Shown here: one piece after another, positions 1,249 to 31,267 of the stretch
How the letters are laid out: the number at the start of each line of letters is the position of its first letter
How positions within the stretch are numbered: the stretch's first letter is position 1
From: a virus
Length of the DNA stretch: 31,267 bases
Reading direction: 5' to 3' (one strand)
IMG/VR virus record: IMGVR_UViG_3300048814_000064
Coordinates: 1 to 31,267 of that record
Notes under the pieces: generated by a model
The model's database searches: none
What the model was told of the DNA's origin: nothing
The model's input: the letters and a program-made list of their open reading frames with translations, nothing else
Translations under genes and position numbers: made by a program

Positions 1249-3156
1249 TTAGTGCGTCAACTGCTTGACTTGGGCTTTAAGATCATTGATCTCGTGCTGC
1301 TGTTCCTGCATTCCCTTCACCAACAACGCCACCATCTGTTCATAGCGCACGCCGCTTGGGGTTCCTTCGTTCGGGCCGCTCTGATAGGTCGCCGCGAGAC
1401 GCGGATCTACGGCCATTACGTCCTGAGCAATGAGACCTACTTGGCGGCCTAAATGACTCGGGTTTACTTTCGGCTTGAGGTCGTAACTCACTGGCTTGAG
1501 CTGCATGATTTCATCAAGGCCCACGTCGAGCGGGTCAATGTTCTCTTTCATCCTGCCGTCTGAGAGCAGACACGTTGTCGTGGTGTCGTACGTTAAATTA
1601 CCACTAACCCCAAGACAGACGGTGCCGGTTTGGACGGCACTGCTTGATGCAAGATTTGGCATCGCAACCGTGTTATCCCCTAATAGGATCTGAGTATTCG
1701 CGGTTTGCTGAGTCGTGCCTGATGCCGCGACATGCGCGCTCTGAAGCGCCAATGTTGCTGCGGTGCCGGTGCCGGTCCCTAGACCCGGTTGAATCGTCAG
1801 CGTGGCGCCAGCAACGTTGTTGTCCGTACCGCCGCGTGAGCCTTGCGCTCCCAGGGTTTGATTGACCGGTGTGGCCGAGGGGGTGTTGCCAAGCTGAATG
1901 TTGCCGGATGATTGGCTCGTGATGTAATCGCGGGAGCCCCAGGATACTGAAGCATTAGAGGCCAGTGAGAGTCCTGCACCCGCGGCGATAGTGCCTGCAC
2001 TTGTGACGACGCCCGCCGTACTGACTTTGAATTGGCTCGACCCTCCAACCTGCCAATCGACCAAATAGCTTGTGGCAGTACATACCGTGCATGTGATGTT
2101 GGCGAAGTCAATGATGCCATCGACCGCCGAGGCATCGTTGACGGTACCGGTGATGTTGCGGCCGAATCCAGTGGTGCCTGATGTCAGCGACAAACCTGTG
2201 CTGGTTTGCGTGTAGGCGTTAGCGGCGCTTGTCAGGGTGGGCGACGTCAGAGTCTTGTTGGCGAGCGTTTGCGCGCCTGCGAGATCCACCAACGTGTCGT
2301 TGGCTGCGGGCACGTGTAGGGTGTAATTGGTCGCGCTGGCGTTGTCGCTGGTAAAGGTCGTCGCGCCGCTGGATGAACCCAGCAACAACAGATCTGAATT
2401 GGTGAAGGTCTTGGCGGCCGTGAAGGTCTGGGCGTTATTGAGCACATCGACCGTACCGGTCGTGGTCGGAAACGTCATCGTCGTGGAATCAGTGCCAGCG
2501 AAGGTGAGGGAATTCGTGAAGTTGAGAGTTTTGCCAGCCGTTCCCGTCAGCGTGTAAGTGCTGGCCGGGAATGCATTGCCGTTGATGCTGGCGGCGGTCG
2601 CGGCACCCAAGTTGGGCGTCACCAACGTCTTATTCGTTAGCGTTTGCGTGTCTGTCGTGCCGACGGGAGCGCTGCCGCCCGCTGTAGTGGTAGCGCTACA
2701 AAGCGCGGTGTTTGCGGCTGGTGCCGCACTCCCGACCGTGCAGTTGCTCAACATCGTGCCAGGAGGCGAAGTCCCTGCTGCCGCATCCGCCGTCCATGTG
2801 CCGGGTGTTCCGGCCGTCGAGCAATATTCCCAGGCGGGAACAGTCGTGTTGTAACGCCACTGACCAATGGTGCAGGAGGCGGGGCGTTGTGCGGTGGTAC
2901 CGGATTGGAGTTGATCGGCGCCAGTGCCCGTGTCGGCAATGCCGATCGGTGTCAGCGTGAGCGCGGACAACGTAGAGGCAACGTATGCCGCAACCTGCGC
3001 CTCGGTACATGCGCGCGTCACTCCTGACTGATCGCAGATCGTCAAGTCAGTCGAGTTGGTGCCGCTCGCCGACGGCAAGTTCTCGACCTTGACCTGGGCC
3101 TGCGCGCCAGCCGAGACCAGTGTCAGCAGTAGAAGATATCGCACAAAGTTTTTCAT
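1249..3156 (-). CDS. Tail-fibre-type protein with Sec signal and C-terminal peptidase S74 chaperone
   Basis: A 635-residue protein. The first 20 residues (MKNFVRYLLLLTLVSAGAQA) look like a cleavable Sec signal peptide. Residues 25-500 are Thr/Ser/Ala/Gly-rich and repetitive, with recurring TLTNKTL and TLANKTLTSPTL motifs typical of fibre shafts. The last ~104 residues are an intramolecular chaperone domain of the peptidase S74 family, with the Ser-Lys dyad in SDGRMKENI (about S532 and K537), a QVGLIAQDV motif and a final coiled coil. In this family the domain trimerises the fibre and then cuts itself off. A signal peptide on a virion fibre is unusual, so a surface-displayed, host-modifying role cannot be excluded. 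Start at 3156 chosen because the signal peptide begins there and it lies 5 bp after the upstream stop. Confidence 0.85.
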   Translation of the reverse strand: MKNFVRYLLLLTLVSAGAQAQVKVENLPSASGTNSTDLTICDQSGVTRACTEAQVAAYVASTLSALTLTPIGIADTGTGADQLQSGTTAQRPASCTIGQWRYNTTVPAWEYCSTAGTPGTWTADAAAGTSPPGTMLSNCTVGSAAPAANTALCSATTTAGGSAPVGTTDTQTLTNKTLVTPNLGAATAASINGNAFPASTYTLTGTAGKTLNFTNSLTFAGTDSTTMTFPTTTGTVDVLNNAQTFTAAKTFTNSDLLLLGSSSGATTFTSDNASATNYTLHVPAANDTLVDLAGAQTLANKTLTSPTLTSAANAYTQTSTGLSLTSGTTGFGRNITGTVNDASAVDGIIDFANITCTVCTATSYLVDWQVGGSSQFKVSTAGVVTSAGTIAAGAGLSLASNASVSWGSRDYITSQSSGNIQLGNTPSATPVNQTLGAQGSRGGTDNNVAGATLTIQPGLGTGTGTAATLALQSAHVAASGTTQQTANTQILLGDNTVAMPNLASSSAVQTGTVCLGVSGNLTYDTTTTCLLSDGRMKENIDPLDVGLDEIMQLKPVSYDLKPKVNPSHLGRQVGLIAQDVMAVDPRLAATYQSGPNEGTPSGVRYEQMVALLVKGMQEQQHEINDLKAQVKQLTH

Positions 3157-3161
3157 AAGTC

Positions 3162-3308
3162 TCAACCCGTAGTAATCGGCTTGCCCGCATCGGTCGTAAT
3201 TTGCTGACCGGCGTCCGTCGTAATGCCGGTTGGCGGCAACTCGGCTTCGACGACAACCGTATATGTGAAGGCCGGTGATCCTATGTCGCCCACGTGAAGA
3301 CCAAACAT
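3162..3308 (-). CDS. Small phage protein, 48 aa, with ITTDAG repeats
   Basis: A 48-residue protein. Its start is well supported: AAGGAG lies 7 bp upstream of the ATG at 3308 and overlaps the stop of the previous gene. The C-terminal part repeats the motif ITTDAG twice (ITTDAGQQ, ITTDAGKP), followed by ITTG. No membrane segment or known motif is seen. It sits between the small beta-rich protein (3320-3637) and the S74 fibre gene (start 3156), so it probably belongs to the same virion operon. Function unknown. Confidence 0.6.
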   Translation of the reverse strand: MFGLHVGDIGSPAFTYTVVVEAELPPTGITTDAGQQITTDAGKPITTG

Positions 3309-3319
3309 GAAAGATCTCC

Positions 3320-3637
3320 TTATGTGTTCGCGATGACGGAAACGATGGAACCCGGAGCGACGCTAAAGTATTCGGTCTGATTTGCGGGCAGCCGAGCATT
3401 GGCTGTGGTGGCGACCGCCGCGGGATTATTCGGTCCAGAAATAGCGATCGAGCACGTCGTATCCGTGTTGACGCGGATTAAATTCGTGCCGCCGCTGACG
3501 GGTTTCGAAGGGTTGGCGGTGCCACTGATGGCCACCACTTGTTCCTCGATCGGCGGCATCGCGACGACAGGAACAACTCCGGCGCCGCGACCAATTCCTT
3601 GGGCGACGGACGGGAATTCGGCGATGTAGAGTGGCAT
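3320..3637 (-). CDS. Small beta-rich phage protein, possibly structural
   Basis: A 105-residue protein rich in Val, Ala, Thr and Pro, of the type often found near portal and capsid genes: an N-terminal VVAISGTANPSKP stretch, then FVR-like strands (NLIRVNTDTTCSIAISG) and a C-terminal RLPANQTEYFSVAPGS. These features suggest a small beta-sandwich, but I cannot name a family. An overlapping frame at 3426-3698 is Arg-rich and looks like a shadow. The gene follows the portal by 63 bp and its stop codon overlaps the Shine-Dalgarno of the next small gene. Confidence 0.65.
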   Translation of the reverse strand: MPLYIAEFPSVAQGIGRGAGVVPVVAMPPIEEQVVAISGTANPSKPVSGGTNLIRVNTDTTCSIAISGPNNPAAVATTANARLPANQTEYFSVAPGSIVSVIANT

Positions 3638-3700
3638 GACGCGCCTTTCGTGGTGATCGATAGAGTCTTAACTCTAACGTCACGACAAACGACGGCACCG

Positions 3701-5461
3701 CTAGAACTCCTCCGACGAAAAGACGGGAAGCCCGAACGCTTTACTCATCACCTTGTTGGCGGCAGCCGGCGGGACGCCACCCGGTTGGCCGGGCTGGTCG
3801 CCATCGTCGGTATCCTGGCCGTCGCCAGGCGGTGCGCCCGGATCTTGCGCAGAGCCAAAGTCATCGCCATCGCCAGGCTCACCCATGCCGGGCTGCGCCT
3901 CGCCAGGCTGGCCGAAGTCGGCATTCTCGGCCTGTTGCTCCGCCTGCCACACGCTGAGTAGTGACGCGTTGAGCGGCGCATCGCCCCACGCGCCTTCCGC
4001 TTTGTCTTCGCCGCGCGCCGCGCGCAGTTCGTTGACGGTATTGCATAACTTGACTTCTTCGAAAGACTGCTTCTTGTCTTCGTCATCGAGGCCTTCCCAG
4101 ACGAAGCAAAACTTGTCGGAAAACGTGCCGACGACAAAATCGGTGAAGATGTTCGAGAAATAGGTGAGCAGCGGACGCAGGCCCTTGTCCTTGGAATTGG
4201 TCAACTTCTCTTCCGTGTCATTGCCGGACAGGCTCGACGTCGTACCGGCGCTGAAGCTCTCGAAGTTGATTTCGTCTGGCGCAATACAATAGAGCGCGCA
4301 GATGATCGAGGTCAGGAGCGTCATCCATTTTGCGAACATGACTTCATTCGCGGCGGCGCCGAGTTCCTGATACGCGGCCTTCGATTCCTGATCCTTCGAG
4401 ATCATGACCGGCAGGTTCCACGCGTTGTTGACGCCCTTGACCATGGCGGCCCAGTAGCGCTTGAACTGTCCGATGTCGGCTTCGGTGTAGTTTCCCGACA
4501 GATGGAGGAGTCCCTTGGGGATGCTGTTGCTGTCGAAATACTTGGTGTTGTAGGTGAAGGCATTCAGGAACCCCGTCACCACGCGGATCAGCAGTTCGGT
4601 TTCCGATAGGCCATAGCCGCCGGCAATGACGTCGGTGCGCGGGTTGCGCGGCACATAGATCAAATCATTGTAGGTGTAAGCCGATCGGATGCGCCCCTGG
4701 ATGACTTGGAGCGCGAAGACCTCGTCATCGCCCTCATAGCCTTCCTCCGAACAGAGCCGGATCGTCGAGCCGTCGACGGCATACATGCCGTCAAGGCCAA
4801 GACTGCGATCGCGCTTGAATTCCGTCTCGATGGGCGCCGAGTCCATGGTGAGCGTGTCACGCACCGCCTTGGCCATGAAGTTCGAGAAACTGTCGCGCTT
4901 CAGGCGTTGCCGGCGTCGCGGATCGGTCTCCCAGCCACAATGGGTGAAAAACTGTTCCAGCAAAACGATCGACTGCTTTTCGTCGCCTTTCGGCTGCCGG
5001 TCGTCATCCTTGAACCGAATATTGAAACCCGGGTCGTCGCTCTTGCCCACCTGGCAAAACCGGGAACACTGGCGGACACGCGTCATGATGACGGCATTCA
5101 AGATCGGCGTCTGCTCGACCATGCTGCGCATGCCGTCGAACGAGAGGTTGCCGGGTCTCTCGAAATAGTCGCCGTTGACGTTGATCTGCATGTCGTCGAT
5201 CCAAACCGACTGCATGCCGCGCTTGTGGCCTTCCGTTCTCTTGGACGGGAAAGGGATGATGTTGTTTTTCTGCAGCGCCTTATTTAAGACCTGCTCCTCG
5301 AGGTCGGCATTGATGTAGTCGATGATCGGCTGAATGTCGGAAGCCGGCAGCAAATCCGACATGGCGCGCGGCATGAGCGCCCGCTGGGCAACCGAAGTCG
5401 CGTCGATGCGTTCGTCGCGAGGCGCGTCGCCGTTCAGGGCAACCGAAAGAGGGGTATCCAT
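3701..5461 (-). CDS. Phage portal protein, HK97-like
   Basis: A 586-residue protein. The central region has features of HK97-family portals: a YVPRNPRTD stretch, then GGYGLSETELLIRVV, a long helix (TGFLNAFTYNTKYFDSN) and SIPKGLLHLSGN. Portals form the dodecameric DNA channel at one capsid vertex and dock terminase and tail. The C-terminal ~70 residues are a Gly/Asp/Pro/Gln-rich tail, often disordered. I use the ATG at 5461 (MDTPLSV), 8 bp after the upstream stop; a longer frame to 5527 would overlap that gene. It is about 20 kb from terminase in this window with no capsid gene alongside, which is not the usual order. Confidence 0.85.
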   Translation of the reverse strand: MDTPLSVALNGDAPRDERIDATSVAQRALMPRAMSDLLPASDIQPIIDYINADLEEQVLNKALQKNNIIPFPSKRTEGHKRGMQSVWIDDMQINVNGDYFERPGNLSFDGMRSMVEQTPILNAVIMTRVRQCSRFCQVGKSDDPGFNIRFKDDDRQPKGDEKQSIVLLEQFFTHCGWETDPRRRQRLKRDSFSNFMAKAVRDTLTMDSAPIETEFKRDRSLGLDGMYAVDGSTIRLCSEEGYEGDDEVFALQVIQGRIRSAYTYNDLIYVPRNPRTDVIAGGYGLSETELLIRVVTGFLNAFTYNTKYFDSNSIPKGLLHLSGNYTEADIGQFKRYWAAMVKGVNNAWNLPVMISKDQESKAAYQELGAAANEVMFAKWMTLLTSIICALYCIAPDEINFESFSAGTTSSLSGNDTEEKLTNSKDKGLRPLLTYFSNIFTDFVVGTFSDKFCFVWEGLDDEDKKQSFEEVKLCNTVNELRAARGEDKAEGAWGDAPLNASLLSVWQAEQQAENADFGQPGEAQPGMGEPGDGDDFGSAQDPGAPPGDGQDTDDGDQPGQPGGVPPAAANKVMSKAFGLPVFSSEEF

Positions 5462-6355: not shown

Positions 6356-6560
6356 TTGACTGCTCCCCGCCCTAAAGGACGGGGATTCTTGCTTCCCAGA
6401 GAACTGCCTTTGCACATCTATATGCACACCGGACTGACATTCTCTCCACAAGCTGACACCGCAAGTCCTGCGGCCAATACATTGCGTGCGGCATTCACAT
6501 CCCGGTCATGGGTCACGCCGCATTCGGGACACGTCCACTCGCGGACGTTGAGCGGCAACG
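6356..6560 (-). ncRNA. Predicted omega-RNA (reRNA) of tnpB, extent inferred
   Basis: In characterised IS200/IS605 elements the guide RNA of TnpB overlaps the 3' end of tnpB and the right end, and its guide is the flanking DNA. The corresponding region here is the last ~140 bp of tnpB plus the right end on the minus strand, with the hairpin at 6365-6384. The guide would then come from the phage sequence just left of 6356. The coordinates are an inference from architecture; only the hairpin is directly visible. Confidence 0.35.
6365..6384. repeat. Right-end hairpin of the tnpB-only IS
   Basis: CCCCG and CGGGG arms flank a CCTAAAGG inner part, with one mismatch. This GC-rich stem-loop lies just inside the proposed element end and 3' of tnpB. 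It is the kind of single-stranded structure that TnpA recognises and that also forms part of the omega-RNA scaffold. Confidence 0.75.
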
Positions 6561-7551
6561 AGACCAACACGTACCCACAGTCGTTGCAGCGCTTGCTCGA
6601 CGGATACCATTTGTCGATACCGATCAGTTCACGCCCGTACCACTGCGACTTGTACTCCAACTGCCGCACAAACTCCGACCAGCCCGCATCGCTGATGGAT
6701 TTGGCGAGACAGGAATTCTTCTGCATGTTGCTGACGGCCAGCGTCTCCACGGCGATCACTTGGTTTTCGTTGACCAACCGGGTTGAGAGCTTATGCAGAA
6801 AATCCTTGCGCGCATCGGCGATATGCGCATTCAGTCGGGCGACTTTCAACTTCGCCTTCGCTCGATTCTTCGAGCCTTTGACCTTCTTGGCCGCCCGCCG
6901 CTGCAACAGGCCAAGCCTAGATTCATGTTCCCTGAACGTATTCGGAGCGGCGATCTTCTCGCCGGTCGAGAGAATCGCGAAGTGCGTCAAGCCTAAGTCG
7001 ATGCCCACTTTTCCTGTGGCTTTGCGCTTTTTCGATACCGTATCGTCGCATAGCAAGGAGACGAAGTACCGCGAGGCGGTATCTTTGGTCACGGTCACGG
7101 TCGTCAGCACCGCAGCTTTAGGCAGTGTGCGTGACCAGCGGATTGCTAATGGCGCATCCATCTTGGCGAGTTTCAGTGCCTTGCCATCCCATTTGAAGGC
7201 GCTCGTGGTGTATTCAGCCGCTTGCTTGTCATGCCGCGACTTGAAGGTTGGGTACTTTGCCCGCTTGGCAAAGAAGTTAGCGAATGCAGTCTGCAAATGG
7301 CGTAGCGATTGCTGCACCGGAACGGAGCTGACTTCGTTCAGCCACAGATGCTCAGGGTCTTTCTTGAGCTTCGTCAATGCGGCGGAGGTTGCGTGATAAC
7401 CCATCCGTTCCTGCCGCTCGAACCAGGCATCGGTACGCTCGCGCAGCATCCGATTGTAGACAAAGCGCGCACAGCCGAAAGTCTGCGCCAAGATCGTCTC
7501 TTGGGTCTGCGTAGGGTAGAAGCGAAAGCGGTAAGCACGCTTGATTTCCAT
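6418..7551 (-). CDS. tnpB: TnpB, RNA-guided nuclease of IS200/IS605 type
   Basis: A full-length 377-residue TnpB. RuvC-I Asp is in GIDLGLTHFA (about D185), RuvC-II Glu in VIAVETL (about E269) and RuvC-III Asp in HDRDVNAARN (about D351). A zinc-ribbon with two CxxC pairs (RCNDC and TCPEC) lies between them, and the N-terminus (MEIKRAYRFRFYPT) is the standard helix-turn-helix entry. All catalytic and zinc residues are present, so it is predicted active. TnpB uses an omega-RNA from the element's 3' end to cut DNA next to a short TAM, which favours element retention. It is inserted against the direction of the early operon. Confidence 0.93.
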   Translation of the reverse strand: MEIKRAYRFRFYPTQTQETILAQTFGCARFVYNRMLRERTDAWFERQERMGYHATSAALTKLKKDPEHLWLNEVSSVPVQQSLRHLQTAFANFFAKRAKYPTFKSRHDKQAAEYTTSAFKWDGKALKLAKMDAPLAIRWSRTLPKAAVLTTVTVTKDTASRYFVSLLCDDTVSKKRKATGKVGIDLGLTHFAILSTGEKIAAPNTFREHESRLGLLQRRAAKKVKGSKNRAKAKLKVARLNAHIADARKDFLHKLSTRLVNENQVIAVETLAVSNMQKNSCLAKSISDAGWSEFVRQLEYKSQWYGRELIGIDKWYPSSKRCNDCGYVLVSLPLNVREWTCPECGVTHDRDVNAARNVLAAGLAVSACGENVSPVCI

Positions 7552-11679: not shown

Positions 11680-11998
11680 CATGAATCTACTTGGCTGCGC
11701 AGCATGCCGGCGTCAGCGATGCCGATCCTACGCCGGTCACAACCAGCTCGAGCATTGCGCACAAGCGATGTACGACATAGCCGAGGCTGCGATCAAGGAG
11801 GCGGAAATGATTACCAACAAACGTTTGGAATGGCTCTCGGGCCGCGATTACGCTGCGAGCGAGGCCGGCCAAGTAGCGGCTGAACTGCTAACCGCCCGCG
11901 CCCGCATAGCCGCGCTGGAGTCGGAGAACGCCATACTGCGCGTCGCAGCCGGCCCGCTGGTGGTGGCTGCTTTGGAAACGAAAGGAGAGGCTACTTGA
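11654..11998 (+). CDS. Hypothetical protein with N-terminal cysteine cluster and coiled coil
   Basis: A 114-residue protein. The N-terminal ~40 residues carry GCAACRRQRC and a later HC, so zinc binding is possible. The C-terminal half is a coiled coil (AAELLTARARIAALESENAILRVAA). An ATG at 11681 is an alternative start that would avoid overlap. Its stop forms a TTGA overlap with the TTG start of the Walker A stub, preceded by AAAGGAG. Confidence 0.45.
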   Translation: MTHQAFRDDMNLLGCAACRRQRCRSYAGHNQLEHCAQAMYDIAEAAIKEAEMITNKRLEWLSGRDYAASEAGQVAAELLTARARIAALESENAILRVAAGPLVVAALETKGEAT

Positions 11999-12111
11999 AT
12001 CAGTTTCCCGCCGCCGCCCTAGCGCAACACATTGCAGTGCTCGGCAAGACCGGCAGCGGTAAGAGCTACGCGGTGCGCGGCGTCGTGCGCGCATCGGATG
12101 ATCTGTTTTGA
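11995..12111 (+). pseudogene. 38-aa stub with Walker A motif, truncated HerA/DUF87-type ATPase
   Basis: A TTG-started frame, coupled by TTGA overlap and preceded by AAAGGAG, reads FPAAALAQHIAVLGKTGSGK and then SYAVRGVV before ending after RASDDLF. The segment H-x-A-V-L-G-K-T-G-S-G-K-S is the Walker A entry of HerA/VirB4-like (DUF87) ATPases, normally followed by several hundred residues with Walker B. None of these follow. It is a remnant of a deleted gene; its good ribosome-binding site means the stub may still be made. Confidence 0.6.
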
Positions 12112-12130
12112 AAACCAAAGGAGAACAGAC

Positions 12131-13325: not shown

Positions 13326-14141
13326 GTGATCGCTGCGCTAGTTGGAAATTTTTCTGGACGTTTACCTCCGAAGGCCCAGGACGCCGTGTTAGCGGCATGT
13401 TTCCTAGTATTTATTTTGCTGATTTATTCGCATTGGTCATATCAGAGACGAAAGGCTGCTCCGAAGACTCCATTGTTATTCCATGGTGGGCATCTGGCCG
13501 TGTTTGGATTATCCATCGCGTTTACTTGGTATTGCGTCGCTTATCGATTGGAGAATCCTGATAACCCTGCGCAAATATCGATAACAACCGATCAAGCAGC
13601 TACGCGACCTCTCCATGCCGCCGATGATGAAATATTACCGGGGGTCGCACTTTCAATGGTGTTGGTCATCCATGACTTACCGGCAACGCGCAGAAGATAC
13701 TTTTTTGATTTGGTGACACCGGAGAAATCGCGGGCAGCTTTTTATCTGTCCGCAAGCGATGTATTTGTCTTTGAAATTACCGATATTAACGGTGAGTCTT
13801 ACCAGTTAGAGACGCCATTAGGCAGTACTGGTGTTCCACTGGGAGAGACGATTTTCATCTTTTGCGAGACTGGAAGTGCTAGTAATTATTCTGTTATGCG
13901 CATATTTGTAAACGGCAAAGAGATGCAAAAGAGAGATTTCGGTTTCCGAATCGGTCTCGGAAGCCGTCAGTGGAAAGAAACCCTAGGTACCGACATCCAT
14001 GGCGAGAATGGCGGAGCATTTCTTTTCGCCGAAGATATGGTTCTGACGACAACGGTGAGCCGAAATACCATAGAAAAGTTGGCGCAGAATATTCGCGATT
14101 ATTATGGCCAAACTACTGGCGGGAAAAATGTCGCGCGGTAA
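13326..14141 (+). CDS. Membrane-anchored protein of unknown function, lower GC
   Basis: A 271-residue protein with two hydrophobic helices near the N-terminus (DAVLAACFLVFILLIYSHWS and HLAVFGLSIAFTWYCVAY), then a ~190-residue beta-rich soluble domain (VFVFEITDINGESYQLETP and GGAFLFAEDMVLTTTVS). Codon use is visibly more AT-rich than neighbours, suggesting separate acquisition. I do not recognise the domain. The GTG start at 13326 has a weak ribosome-binding site. Contains the donor copy of the 51-bp repeat (PGVALSMVLVIHDLP). Possible accessory (moron) gene. Confidence 0.55.
   Translation: MIAALVGNFSGRLPPKAQDAVLAACFLVFILLIYSHWSYQRRKAAPKTPLLFHGGHLAVFGLSIAFTWYCVAYRLENPDNPAQISITTDQAATRPLHAADDEILPGVALSMVLVIHDLPATRRRYFFDLVTPEKSRAAFYLSASDVFVFEITDINGESYQLETPLGSTGVPLGETIFIFCETGSASNYSVMRIFVNGKEMQKRDFGFRIGLGSRQWKETLGTDIHGENGGAFLFAEDMVLTTTVSRNTIEKLAQNIRDYYGQTTGGKNVAR
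13635..13685 (+). repeat. 51-bp direct repeat, probable donor copy
   Basis: Identical to 12754-12804. It encodes part of a continuous protein here, reading PGVALSMVLVIHDLP in frame. Confidence 0.85.
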
Positions 14142-14415
14142 ATACCTAAGCCTTCCAGAGTCGCGCAAGAAAAGGCAGTGGCATGTATCCCGTAGTCTAA
14201 CGGTGAAGGATCAGCAGCGGGGCATTGAACTGTGGTCGAATCCTGGCGATACGATTTTATCTCCGTTTGCTGGCATCGGGAGCGAGGGATTTGTTGCGAT
14301 TCAAAACGGCCGAAAGTTTATCGGTGCAGAACTTAAGAGAACGTATTTCAATCAGGCTGTAGAAAATCTTCGGCAAGCTCGGCGGTCAATGGGAGATATG
14401 TTCGATGTCGCCTAG
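14104..14415 (+). pseudogene. C-terminal fragment of a DNA adenine/cytosine N-methyltransferase
   Basis: A 103-residue frame in which residues ~36-95 (QQRGIELWSNPGDTILSPFA, then GIGSEGFVAIQNGRKFIGAE) match the C-terminal part of N6/N4 DNA methyltransferases of the beta class. The SPFAGIGSEG segment is the S-adenosylmethionine-binding motif I. In that class the catalytic motif IV (D/N/S-P-P-Y/F/W) lies N-terminal and is absent here, so this fragment cannot methylate by itself. The first ~30 residues overlap the end of the previous gene and do not look native. A truncated remnant. Confidence 0.7.
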
Positions 14416-14871: not shown

Positions 14872-15030
14872 ATGGCAACCGAGAAGATACAAGCAACCAC
14901 GTATTTAGACGCTCCACTCTACGATGCGATCAAACGCAAAGCGGATGCGGAGCAACGCACGCTTTCACAAGCTATGGCCATTTTGTTAGCCGAGGCCATC
15001 GCACGATCCACCAAACCCAACCGGAGATGA
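14872..15030 (+). CDS. Ribbon-helix-helix DNA-binding protein, 52 aa
   Basis: A 52-residue protein with the ribbon-helix-helix layout: a short strand (KIQATTYLDAPL), helix 1 (YDAIKRKADAEQ), a turn (RTLS) and helix 2 (QAMAILLAEAIAR). Arc/CopG-type proteins of this size dimerise and repress nearby promoters, often their own. It has its own candidate promoter and appears leaderless. It precedes the ERF-Dam fusion gene by a few bases, so it may regulate the recombination segment. The target operator is not identified. Confidence 0.7.
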   Translation: MATEKIQATTYLDAPLYDAIKRKADAEQRTLSQAMAILLAEAIARSTKPNRR

Positions 15031-15032
15031 CT

Positions 15033-15059
15033 ATGGCAAAATCGAGCACGCAGCCGTGA
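15033..15059 (+). CDS. Eight-codon leader frame overlapping the ERF-Dam start
   Basis: ATG 15033 with GGAG upstream reads MAKSSTQP and stops at 15057-15059, forming a GTGA overlap with the GTG at 15056. MAKSSTQP resembles the normal start of ERF proteins, so the ERF gene may really start here with a one-base indel. It could also be a coupling peptide. Confidence 0.3.
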   Translation: MAKSSTQP

Positions 15060-15628
15060 GTGTCGAGAAGTCCGAGCTGATTATCCCCGAATCCCGCGTC
15101 GATCGAGTGTCGGCATACCATGCGCCCGTCATTCCGGTAGCTGACCCGATTATGGCGATCATCGAGCGCATGACGCGGGAGCCCTCCTTCGATATTGAGC
15201 GCATTAAAGAAATGCTCGCCATGAAGGAGCGCTTCGAGGCGCTGGAGGCGAAGAAATCCTTCGTGGCGGACATGGCGGAATTCAAGAAGAACCCGCCGCA
15301 GATTTACAAAAATAAGCACGTGGGGTTCGATTCAAAACGAACCGGCGAACGAACTGCTTACGATCATGCAACGCACTCTGAGGTCACGATGAAGATCATC
15401 GCCGAGTGGATGCGCAAGGCGTATGGGGCCGCTCAGGAGGGCGCGACAGTAGTTTGCCTGGTGCCAGCCCGTACCGATACGGTTTGGTGGCACGAGTACG
15501 CCATGAAGTCAGAGATTCTGCTTATCAAGGGCCGGCTCAAGTTTGGCGATGCCGACAACAGCGCACCATTTCCCAGTGCCATTGTCGTGTTCCGGCCGCG
15601 TGAATTTAGGCTGGTGTCGTATGGATAG
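15056..15628 (+). CDS. Chimeric protein: ERF annealing protein N-terminus fused to Dam methylase C-terminus
   Basis: A 190-residue frame made of two unrelated pieces. Residues ~20-118 (ADPIMAIIERM, ERFEALEAKKSFVADMAEFK, NPPQIYKNKHVGFD, YDHATHSEVTMKI) are the N-terminal part of an ERF-family single-strand annealing protein. Residues ~119-185 (EWMRKAYGAAQEGATVVCLV, PARTDTVWWHEYAMKSEI, IKGRLKFGDADNSAPFPSAI) are the C-terminal part of a phage Dam-type N6-adenine methyltransferase. The ERF core and the methylase's NPPY catalytic motif are both missing. A clean deletion of the DNA between the two genes explains this; neither activity is expected. The frame is continuous across the junction near 15405. 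Confidence 0.75.
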   Translation: MSVEKSELIIPESRVDRVSAYHAPVIPVADPIMAIIERMTREPSFDIERIKEMLAMKERFEALEAKKSFVADMAEFKKNPPQIYKNKHVGFDSKRTGERTAYDHATHSEVTMKIIAEWMRKAYGAAQEGATVVCLVPARTDTVWWHEYAMKSEILLIKGRLKFGDADNSAPFPSAIVVFRPREFRLVSYG

Positions 15629-15791
15629 CAAGAAACTGCCGCTTATCGAATGGGTGATGGAGCGTTTTGAGAACTGTTGCCGTATTGCGAGTGAGAAAGA
15701 AGATCCCGCCGACAGGGATGCATGGATGGAAGATGCCGAATACTTTAGACAGGTGCTTGTCGTTTTGTACTACGAGGCAAAGAAGTCATGA
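15621..15791 (+). CDS. Small acidic phage protein, 56 aa
   Basis: A 56-residue helical protein (KKLPLIEWVMERFENCCRIA, EKEDPADRDAWMEDAEYFRQ). ATG at 15621 overlaps the previous stop by 8 bp; ATGA overlap with the next gene. Function unknown. Confidence 0.5.
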   Translation: MDSKKLPLIEWVMERFENCCRIASEKEDPADRDAWMEDAEYFRQVLVVLYYEAKKS

Positions 15792-19196: not shown

Positions 19197-19901
19197 CGAA
19201 AGGCGCAATACGCGAAACAGCTTCAGGCGCTTGACATAAAGGTTTATATTGAGGAGCCGAAGGCGAACTGTTTCAGTGTTGCCGCTGTCTTAGCTTTTGC
19301 GAGGCACTATGAGTTGTTTGCTGGCGGTGCTGGCGCGATTCTCACAGTTTTGGTTTCTTGGATTATTGCCAAGACAAGTAATAACCGGGAAGAAATGAAA
19401 GCACTCAAGGATTCTTTGGATAAGGCAATAGATCACCTTGCCAACAAAGACAGCACCCTAGTGCCTAGGCTTCTGGATACGGTAGATCGAATGGCGACTT
19501 CGCTACGACCATCGGTAATTAAGGCGGTCGCGCCCGTTGGAAAATCGTGCAATGAGATGCGAATAGGAGACTCCTTGCCAATTGACCGAGCAGCGGCAGA
19601 TGCAATTAGAGCAGTTGCGGCCGACGCAGTTACCGAAGAACGGACATGGCTGATTCGCATTACTGAACTAGATTTAGAGAGTTTCTCCGCGAAAGTTCGA
19701 TTTGAAGATGAATCCGAACAAGATGATGCGCGCTTTAGGGCGGCTATCACGGACCCTGCAATCGCCGTTTTGAATAACGCCTATACCAGAGCGTTTGCAA
19801 ACCATACCGTTCTGCGGGTGCGCGGAAAAGCAACACTCAAGGAAGGCGAAATTCAAACGCTTTATATCAGTAACACCGATGACCAAGAAGCCAGCCAATA
19901 A
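19197..19901 (+). pseudogene. 5'-truncated membrane protein, possibly DUF7946-like
   Basis: From 19314 (TTG) a 195-residue protein has a membrane segment (GGAGAILTVLVSWIIA), a charged helical region (NNREEMKALKDSLDKAIDHL, LLDTVDRMATSLRP) and a C-terminal beta domain (WLIRITELDLESFSAKVRFE ... ATLKEGEIQTLYISN). The same frame is open and protein-like further upstream (KAQYAKQLQALDIKVYIEEP, KANCFSVAAVLAFARHYELF) down to the stop of the previous gene at 19196, with no start codon. From memory, DUF7946-type proteins have this layout with ~100 more N-terminal residues. I read it as a longer gene that lost its 5' end. Codon use is more AT-rich than neighbours. Confidence 0.5.
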
Positions 19902-29981: not shown

Positions 29982-30005
29982 CGGCCTTCAGGCCGGGGAG
30001 GAAGG
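29982..30005 (+). repeat. Left-end hairpin core shared with the tnpB-only IS
   Basis: CCCCGGCCTTCAGGCCGGGG at 29980-29999 is a near-perfect stem-loop in the TnpA left end. Bases 29982-30005 equal the reverse complement of 7598-7621. Confidence 0.85.
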
Positions 30006-30407
30006 ACTGTCTGGTGCTCTTTGCGATTCGATGTACTTGCGCAGTACCGTGATGGGTGCGCCGCCGACAGATGCTACGAAATAACTCGCCGACCATAGAC
30101 CGCTTCTCCAATACTTGCGCGTGATGTCCGGCCGCGTTGCCCGCAATCTGCGGGCCGAGACACCCTTCAGCGAATTGACCAATCCTGACAATGCAATTTT
30201 GGGAGGATAGTTCACGAGCAAATGCACGTGATCCGCTTCGCCGTTGAATTCGGTCAGCGTCGTCTCGAAGTCTGCGCACACTGCCGCGAAAGATTGCTGC
30301 AACACCTGTAGCGCATCCCGATCGAAGATCCTCTTCCGATAACGCGGCACGAATACGATGTGGGCATGCAGTTCGAACACCACGTGCCGTCCTTTGCGAA
30401 GTTCCAT
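29988..30407 (-). CDS. tnpA: TnpA, Y1 HUH transposase of IS200/IS605 type
   Basis: A 139-residue single-domain HUH enzyme. HUH motif HVH at residues 60-62 (EADHVHLLVNYPPK), catalytic tyrosine at about 125 (TVLRKYIESQ). Size and layout match TnpA of IS200/IS605, which excises and inserts the element as single-stranded circles. The gene reads toward the left end and overlaps the end hairpin at its stop. It is the only TnpA in the window, so it may also move the tnpB-only IS. ATG 30407. Confidence 0.95.
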   Translation of the reverse strand: MELRKGRHVVFELHAHIVFVPRYRKRIFDRDALQVLQQSFAAVCADFETTLTEFNGEADHVHLLVNYPPKIALSGLVNSLKGVSARRLRATRPDITRKYWRSGLWSASYFVASVGGAPITVLRKYIESQRAPDSPSSPA

Positions 30408-30409
30408 AT

Positions 30410-30438
30410 TTGACGCCCGCTGTAGACCAATCTATAAT
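30410..30438 (+). promoter_or_regulatory. Strong sigma-70 promoter for tnpB, with an 8-bp inverted repeat
   Basis: TTGACG (30410-30415), exactly 17 bp, TATAAT (30433-30438). Transcription should start near 30445, at the ATG of tnpB, so the mRNA would be leaderless. TAGACCAA (30423-30430) and TTGGTCTA (30438-30445) form an inverted repeat around the -10, a likely operator or cruciform. Confidence 0.7.
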
Positions 30439-30444
30439 TGGTCT

Positions 30445-31267
30445 ATGGTGCTCGTCTATCGCTACCGCGTCAAATCGCTCAATGGCCTGCTGAATCGCCA
30501 ATCTCGCGCGGTGAACTACGTTTGGAATTACTGCAACGACACACAGAAATCCGCGCTGAAGTGGAATAAGAGATGGCCGTCCGGCTTTGATCTGAATAAG
30601 TTGACGACTGGCAGCAGCAAAGAATTGGGGCTGCATAGCGGAACCGTCAATGCGGTGTGCGAGCAATACGCCAAATCCAGAAGCCAGAAGAAGCGCCCTT
30701 ATCTTCGTTACCGCGGCCGAAAGTCCTTGGGGTGGGTGCCACTCAAGGGCCGCGAGTTGAAGCGCGAAGGCTCCGCTTTCCGCTTTGCCGGAAATACGTT
30801 TCGCGTCTTCCATTCGCGTCCATTGCCGGAAGGCAAGATAAAGGATGGCACTAACTTTTCGTGCGACTCTCGCGGCAATTGGTATCTGAATATCGTTATA
30901 GAAGTGGCCGACACCGCCGCAAGATCGGTAACCGCCGCAGTCGGTATCGATCTCGGACTGAAAGACTTCGCAGCTCTTTCGACTGGCGAGACCATCGGCA
31001 ATCCAAGGCATCTGCACAAACTGGCGGATCAATTGGCCGTGGCGCAGCGCGCAGGAAAGAAGCGACAGGCTCGCAATATCCACGCGCGCATCACGAATGG
31101 GCGCTCTGATTTTCACCACAAGCTCTCGGCCCGCATCGTCCGAGAGTTCGATTACATCGCTGTCGGCAATGTGAATGCCGCAGGACTTGCCCGAACCAGC
31201 ATGGCAAAGTCCGTCCTCGATGCAGGCTGGTCGTCCTTCCGAAATATGCTCCACTACAAAGCTATTA
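30445..31267 (+). CDS. tnpB: TnpB-family protein, partial, RuvC-II glutamate replaced by glycine
   Basis: The frame runs 274 codons to the window edge. N-terminus MVLVYRYRVKSLNGLLNRQS; RuvC-I Asp at about 169 in GIDLGLKDFAAL. At the RuvC-II position, where most TnpBs have E in (V/I)-x-x-E-x-L, this one reads YIAVGNVNAAGLARTSMAKS with Gly at 241. The sequence ends before the zinc ribbon and RuvC-III. From memory, such IAVGNV variants form their own TnpB group and may carry a relocated Glu, so inactivity cannot be assumed. It differs from the first TnpB throughout. Confidence 0.85.
   Translation, partial: MVLVYRYRVKSLNGLLNRQSRAVNYVWNYCNDTQKSALKWNKRWPSGFDLNKLTTGSSKELGLHSGTVNAVCEQYAKSRSQKKRPYLRYRGRKSLGWVPLKGRELKREGSAFRFAGNTFRVFHSRPLPEGKIKDGTNFSCDSRGNWYLNIVIEVADTAARSVTAAVGIDLGLKDFAALSTGETIGNPRHLHKLADQLAVAQRAGKKRQARNIHARITNGRSDFHHKLSARIVREFDYIAVGNVNAAGLARTSMAKSVLDAGWSSFRNMLHYKAI

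Follow-up and report, generated by a model that had tools for sequence, protein, structure and literature searches.

The open reading frame (ORF) at 15056-15628 joins, in frame, the N-terminal part of an ERF annealing protein to the C-terminal half of a Dam-type methylase. We consider it likely, short of firm confidence, that this ORF is a recent, non-catalytic gene remnant produced by illegitimate joining of an ERF gene and a Dam gene. The source is a 31,267-base record of an uncultivated virus, listed as linear or without a class, and the window analysed here is that entire record. The ORF, its parts and its neighbours are as follows:

14212-14415, plus strand: second methylase stub, C-terminal part of N6_N4_Mtase (Pfam PF01555, profile positions 172-221 of 221)
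14872-15030, plus strand: small ribbon-helix-helix protein just upstream of the chimeric ORF (Pfam RHH_5, E 8e-5, under the gathering score)
15027-15059, plus strand: 10-codon leader, MTMAKSSTQP and a stop, behind GGAG; overlaps the chimeric GTG start as GTGA
15056-15628, plus strand: chimeric ORF, 190 aa, GTG start, TAG stop, no internal stops
15056-15400, plus strand: N part of an ERF annealing protein, codons 1-115, with homology from codon 23; about one-third of the ERF core
15398-15404, plus strand: junction, ATC GCC, sharing the phase of the ERF relative and consistent with the Dam relatives
15401-15628, plus strand: C half of a Dam (PF05869) methylase, without the N-terminal half and NPPY
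15621-15791, plus strand: small ORF from the ORF calls, its first 8 nt shared with the end of the chimeric ORF

Two phage gene families meet in one reading frame

We aligned the ERF and Dam halves separately (a joint MAFFT alignment misplaced the ERF rows), and comparison with intact genes confirmed that the N part is ERF-like and the C part Dam-like. On the ERF side, residues 23-115 are 60% identical to the intact 271-aa ERF protein of locus L031 (E 2e-40), PHROG 155 Erf matches residues 27-90 (E 3e-9), and the N-terminal segment with the EARKAFVADMAEFKKNPP-like motif of ERF annealing proteins (PF04404) is present. The first-pass annotation had described the ERF core as missing. The core is indeed broken, but it is truncated rather than wholly absent: the Pfam ERF domain of L031 covers residues 70-211, and residue 115 of L031 marks the join. 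A complete core is absent from the ORF, for which a Pfam search returned no PF04404 match.

On the Dam side, Pfam PF05869 aligns to residues 116-170 (profile positions 73-130 of 169, E 4e-5, under the Pfam gathering score) and PHROG 111 DNA methyltransferase to residues 116-182 (E 1e-21), while residues 116-190 share 59-72% identity with ten intact Dam proteins. The C-terminal half of PF05869 (WWHEYAMK...GRLKF...APFPSA) is present. Intact Dam proteins have about 75 extra residues in front, ending in NPPY, a motif found in 95 of the 98 Dam ORFs searched; among the three others, one has NQPY, and in two the motif lies a little before the stretch that was searched. NPPY is absent from the chimeric ORF, as had been claimed, and from the rest of the window. 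In a separate locus (L102, near 9998), a Dam gene has a stop codon immediately after NPPYG, with the remainder intact.

The specificity of these assignments was controlled by searching the halves apart, and neither the N part against Dam nor the C part against ERF gave a match above chance. The ERF half keeps 22 of 24 residues invariant among its relatives and the Dam half keeps 30 of 30 (52/54 overall). Differences from relatives are in excess at third codon positions on both sides, with counts by codon position of 24/20/52 for ERF and 14/13/35 for Dam. Together with the preserved residues, this is as expected for a young join. The same sequence features would also suit a non-biological join or a product under selection, and from sequence alone the three look alike.

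The proposal that two unrelated families are fused in frame near 15405 is borne out, with the join placed at 15398-15404: DNA homology to the L031 ERF gene ends at 15402, and homology to the Dam gene of locus L016 begins at 15403. The join comprises codons 115-116 (ATC GCC, 15398-15403), and the codon for I stands in the same phase in both parents. Read in phase, L031 has AAG ATC ATC GCT and the window AAG ATC ATC GCC GAG TGG ATG; most Dam relatives place their I codon at the second ATC and finish with TGG ATG. ATC or ATC GCC was thus possibly common to both genes in the same codon phase, giving an in-frame product. No exact parent sequences were found, and comparison with the relatives suggests a microhomology of 3-6 nt at the join.

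No good ribosome site precedes the GTG start of the chimeric ORF itself, and the short leader that overlaps this start may be a sign of translational coupling or, alternatively, of a frameshift where ERF once started. The 8-nt overlap at 15621 is the usual early-gene packing, retained on the Dam side.

The missing halves and a search for a fusion family

The idea that the missing ERF C half and Dam N half had been relocated within the window was rejected, as a search of the window found neither. There was also no Rfam match to an intron, either here or in the truncated ERF gene described below. Without most of the ERF core and without the NPPY-bearing N-terminal half of Dam, the product is probably inactive; from what is established for both families, neither annealing nor methylation would be expected of it.

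A natural family of full-length proteins with the same architecture would speak against the chimeric origin put forward in the first-pass annotation. We looked for one in viral contigs, phages and plasmids and found none. Among 254 viral loci (155 ERF and 99 Dam, up to 10 kb per side, 3.2 Mb), no ORF has both ERF and Dam parts, and the exact 26-mer across the junction was found in no other viral contig. Phage and plasmid records, at the sensitivity used, gave no protein matching both halves with high identity. Whole-query alignments in some of these records were taken as chance extensions because, in the study loci, separate searches tie the N part to ERF alone and the C part to Dam alone. A natural ERF-Dam family was therefore rejected, no second member having appeared at this sensitivity. 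Two scans of genome contigs returned no relative of any kind and hence carry little weight on the family question.

A second ERF stub

Among the distinct ERF genes, 105 of 106 are whole. The exception lies in another viral contig:

6935-7486 of IMGVR_UViG_3300044470_000095 (L160): truncated ERF stub

This gene breaks off, independently, no more than a few codons away from where the ERF part of the window does, and continues in frame for about 58 residues, a tail that matches no known family. An intact RecT-type annealing gene (PHROG 2449, E 2.5e-93) follows about 1 kb downstream, and the simplest reading is that the ERF gene was displaced, its front end staying in place. The stub makes natural ERF stubs plausible, thinly so as a single case. 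The long ORF after the RecT-type gene resembles, by eye, a YqaJ-type exonuclease.

Gene order around ERF and Dam

The chimera had been attributed to deletion of a replication and recombination interval that normally lies between the two genes, and gene order in the study loci leaves this unsupported. Both genes occur together in only one of about 250 loci (L263), where a more distant Dam gene (883-1341) lies upstream of ERF (3001-3705), the reverse of the order proposed. ERF-Dam adjacency as a normal gene order was therefore rejected. The nearest flanking genes of the window were not found near ERF or Dam in any of these loci.

The window terminase and portal are related to those of phages of 86-95 kb, namely Aeromonas ST4, Pseudomonas Dolphis and Touem01, and Bordetella PHB04; no match to the chimeric ORF was found in four phages of the ST4 group. 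As the 31-kb linear record is only a piece of a genome type of about 90 kb, its absent replication and capsid genes are not evidence of deletion. They were rejected as proof for the further reason that PHB04, too, has accessory genes between terminase and portal. With the patterns used, no close relatives of the window terminase were found in viral contigs. The 'recombinase' annotations in phages ST4 and Dolphis (L037:18476-19420 and L038:3052-3963) belong to the RdgC family by Pfam.

Stubs and repeats elsewhere in the window

The second methylase stub (14212-14415), about 1 kb upstream of the chimeric ORF, is 63% identical to EBPR podovirus 1 gp50 over gp50 residues 140-202 only and lacks the N-terminal ~139 residues of that protein; no close relatives of it were found in viral contigs with the patterns used. 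Three repeats were also found in the window. A 164-nt inverted repeat with 99% identity and sharp ends (98-261/21157-21320) has its copies 21 kb apart in different gene contexts. A 54-nt direct repeat with one mismatch (12754-12807/13635-13688), in which similarity continues with an indel, has its second copy inside ORF 13326-14141. An exact 24-nt direct repeat (22771-22794/24378-24401) does not share its flanks. The methylase stub and the nearby duplications suggest a patchwork region, which would fit real shuffling and would fit a chimeric contig also.

Several other features of the window were recorded. In ORF 14104-14415, homology to intact N6_N4 methylases starts abruptly near 14212. A 38-codon ORF at 11996-12112 has a Walker-A-like motif (AVLGKTGSGKS), weak family matches and no match in phage records; it is possibly the stub of an ATPase gene. 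The ORF at 19206-19901 lies directly behind a stop codon and matches PHROG 5147 from profile position 52 on, so that N-terminal truncation is possible. By eye, the ORFs at 6418-7551 and 29988-30407 resemble an IS200/IS605 TnpB and TnpA, and that at 30358-31266 a second TnpB, interrupted by the end of the contig.

Weighing the explanations

The join could be an artefact of amplification or misassembly, with the ORF present in no phage. We regard this as rather unlikely, yet a serious alternative. The join is known from one uncultivated-virus contig, its 26-mer recurs in no other, the same contig carries the inverted copy, the 54-nt and 24-nt repeats and the second methylase stub, and the conserved residues are undamaged on both sides, which would follow from an assembly or amplification chimera as readily as from a recent event. 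However, the 3-6 nt shared at the join are too little to mislead a k-mer assembler, and the gene upstream and the 8-nt overlap on the 3' side are both normal. The 54-nt repeat is slightly diverged, so that this rearrangement is not artefact-like, and L160 indicates that natural ERF stubs exist. Quite unlikely, in our estimate, is the possibility that an ancestor carried ERF with Dam downstream and that one deletion removed the interval, a sub-case of the remnant reading whose probability overlaps with it. A single event would be the simplest path from that ancestral order, and the two parts share a strand and a frame, between packed genes; the reversed order in L263, the flanking genes, which were not found near ERF or Dam, and the ST4-group phages all speak against it. 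The deletion account is thus possible, and unsupported.

We hold it very improbable that the fusion is a retained working protein, such as a dominant-negative partner in an ERF ring or a DNA-binding fragment, in line with the dominant-negative or DNA-binding role suggested in the first-pass annotation. The frame is open, the conserved residues are intact, ERF stubs occur in two unrelated contigs, and the Dam half, folded alone with its relatives, is predicted at pLDDT 84 as a helix plus strands. Yet this model matches no solved structure in the PDB at E <= 0.001, and single-sequence folding of the whole ORF gave pLDDT 35, a value of little weight for a fold predicted from no alignment. Essential parts of the fold are missing from each half and neither holds a complete active site, leaving the dominant-negative idea unsupported; the architecture has no second member found, and the poor ribosome site of the GTG start also counts against a working product. 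Barely plausible is a broader version, in which ERF N-terminal stubs with unrelated tails, as in the window and L160, are kept for a role of their own, for example modulating the annealing ring.

We therefore return to the remnant reading as the likely one. Its setting would be the early or accessory region in a relative of the ST4/Dolphis/PHB04 group of phages, where illegitimate recombination would have joined the gene of an ERF annealing protein to that of a Dam-type adenine methylase through a few bases common to both (ATC GCC), preserving the frame by chance. The second methylase stub 1 kb upstream suggests that the region was hit by more than one such event. What the analysis shows directly is the pair of gene parts and their join, the loss of the other halves, the retention of conserved residues and the lack of a family built in this way. 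The route, the recency and the lack of function are what we infer, and some points weigh against them: the open frame and intact residues are equally expected of a functional protein or an artefact, and the join is seen in one contig alone. Phage mosaicism, and the debate on whether homologous or illegitimate recombination causes it, have been discussed previously (PMC3945230); that paper argues that homologous recombination is by far the more common of the two in the evolution of phages, which counts against an illegitimate join.

Alone, the ORF matters little, since mosaic phage genomes are expected to contain chimeric remnants. It calls for caution in that it could be annotated as a Dam methylase despite the absent catalytic half. 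Taken with L160, it gives a slight indication that, in nature, genes for annealing proteins get broken and displaced while their fronts stay behind.

Comparison with known systems

Up to the join, the chimeric ORF resembles ERF-type single-strand annealing proteins (PF04404, PHROG 155; nearest L031) along codons 23-115, whereas L031 goes on to everything past residue 115, including two-thirds of the ERF core. Beyond the join, it resembles the last ~75 residues of phage Dam N6-adenine methyltransferases (PF05869, PHROG 111; nearest L002, L010 and L016), whereas the intact enzymes also have the first ~75 residues with NPPY. The L160 stub is alike in consisting of an ERF N part with a break at nearly the same place and an unrelated in-frame tail; it differs in that its tail is not Dam and an intact RecT-type gene lies close downstream. 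Like mosaic temperate phages and defective prophages (PMC3945230), the window appears as a patchwork of gene segments swapped between phages, but here the join lies inside two unrelated genes and not at a stretch of homology.
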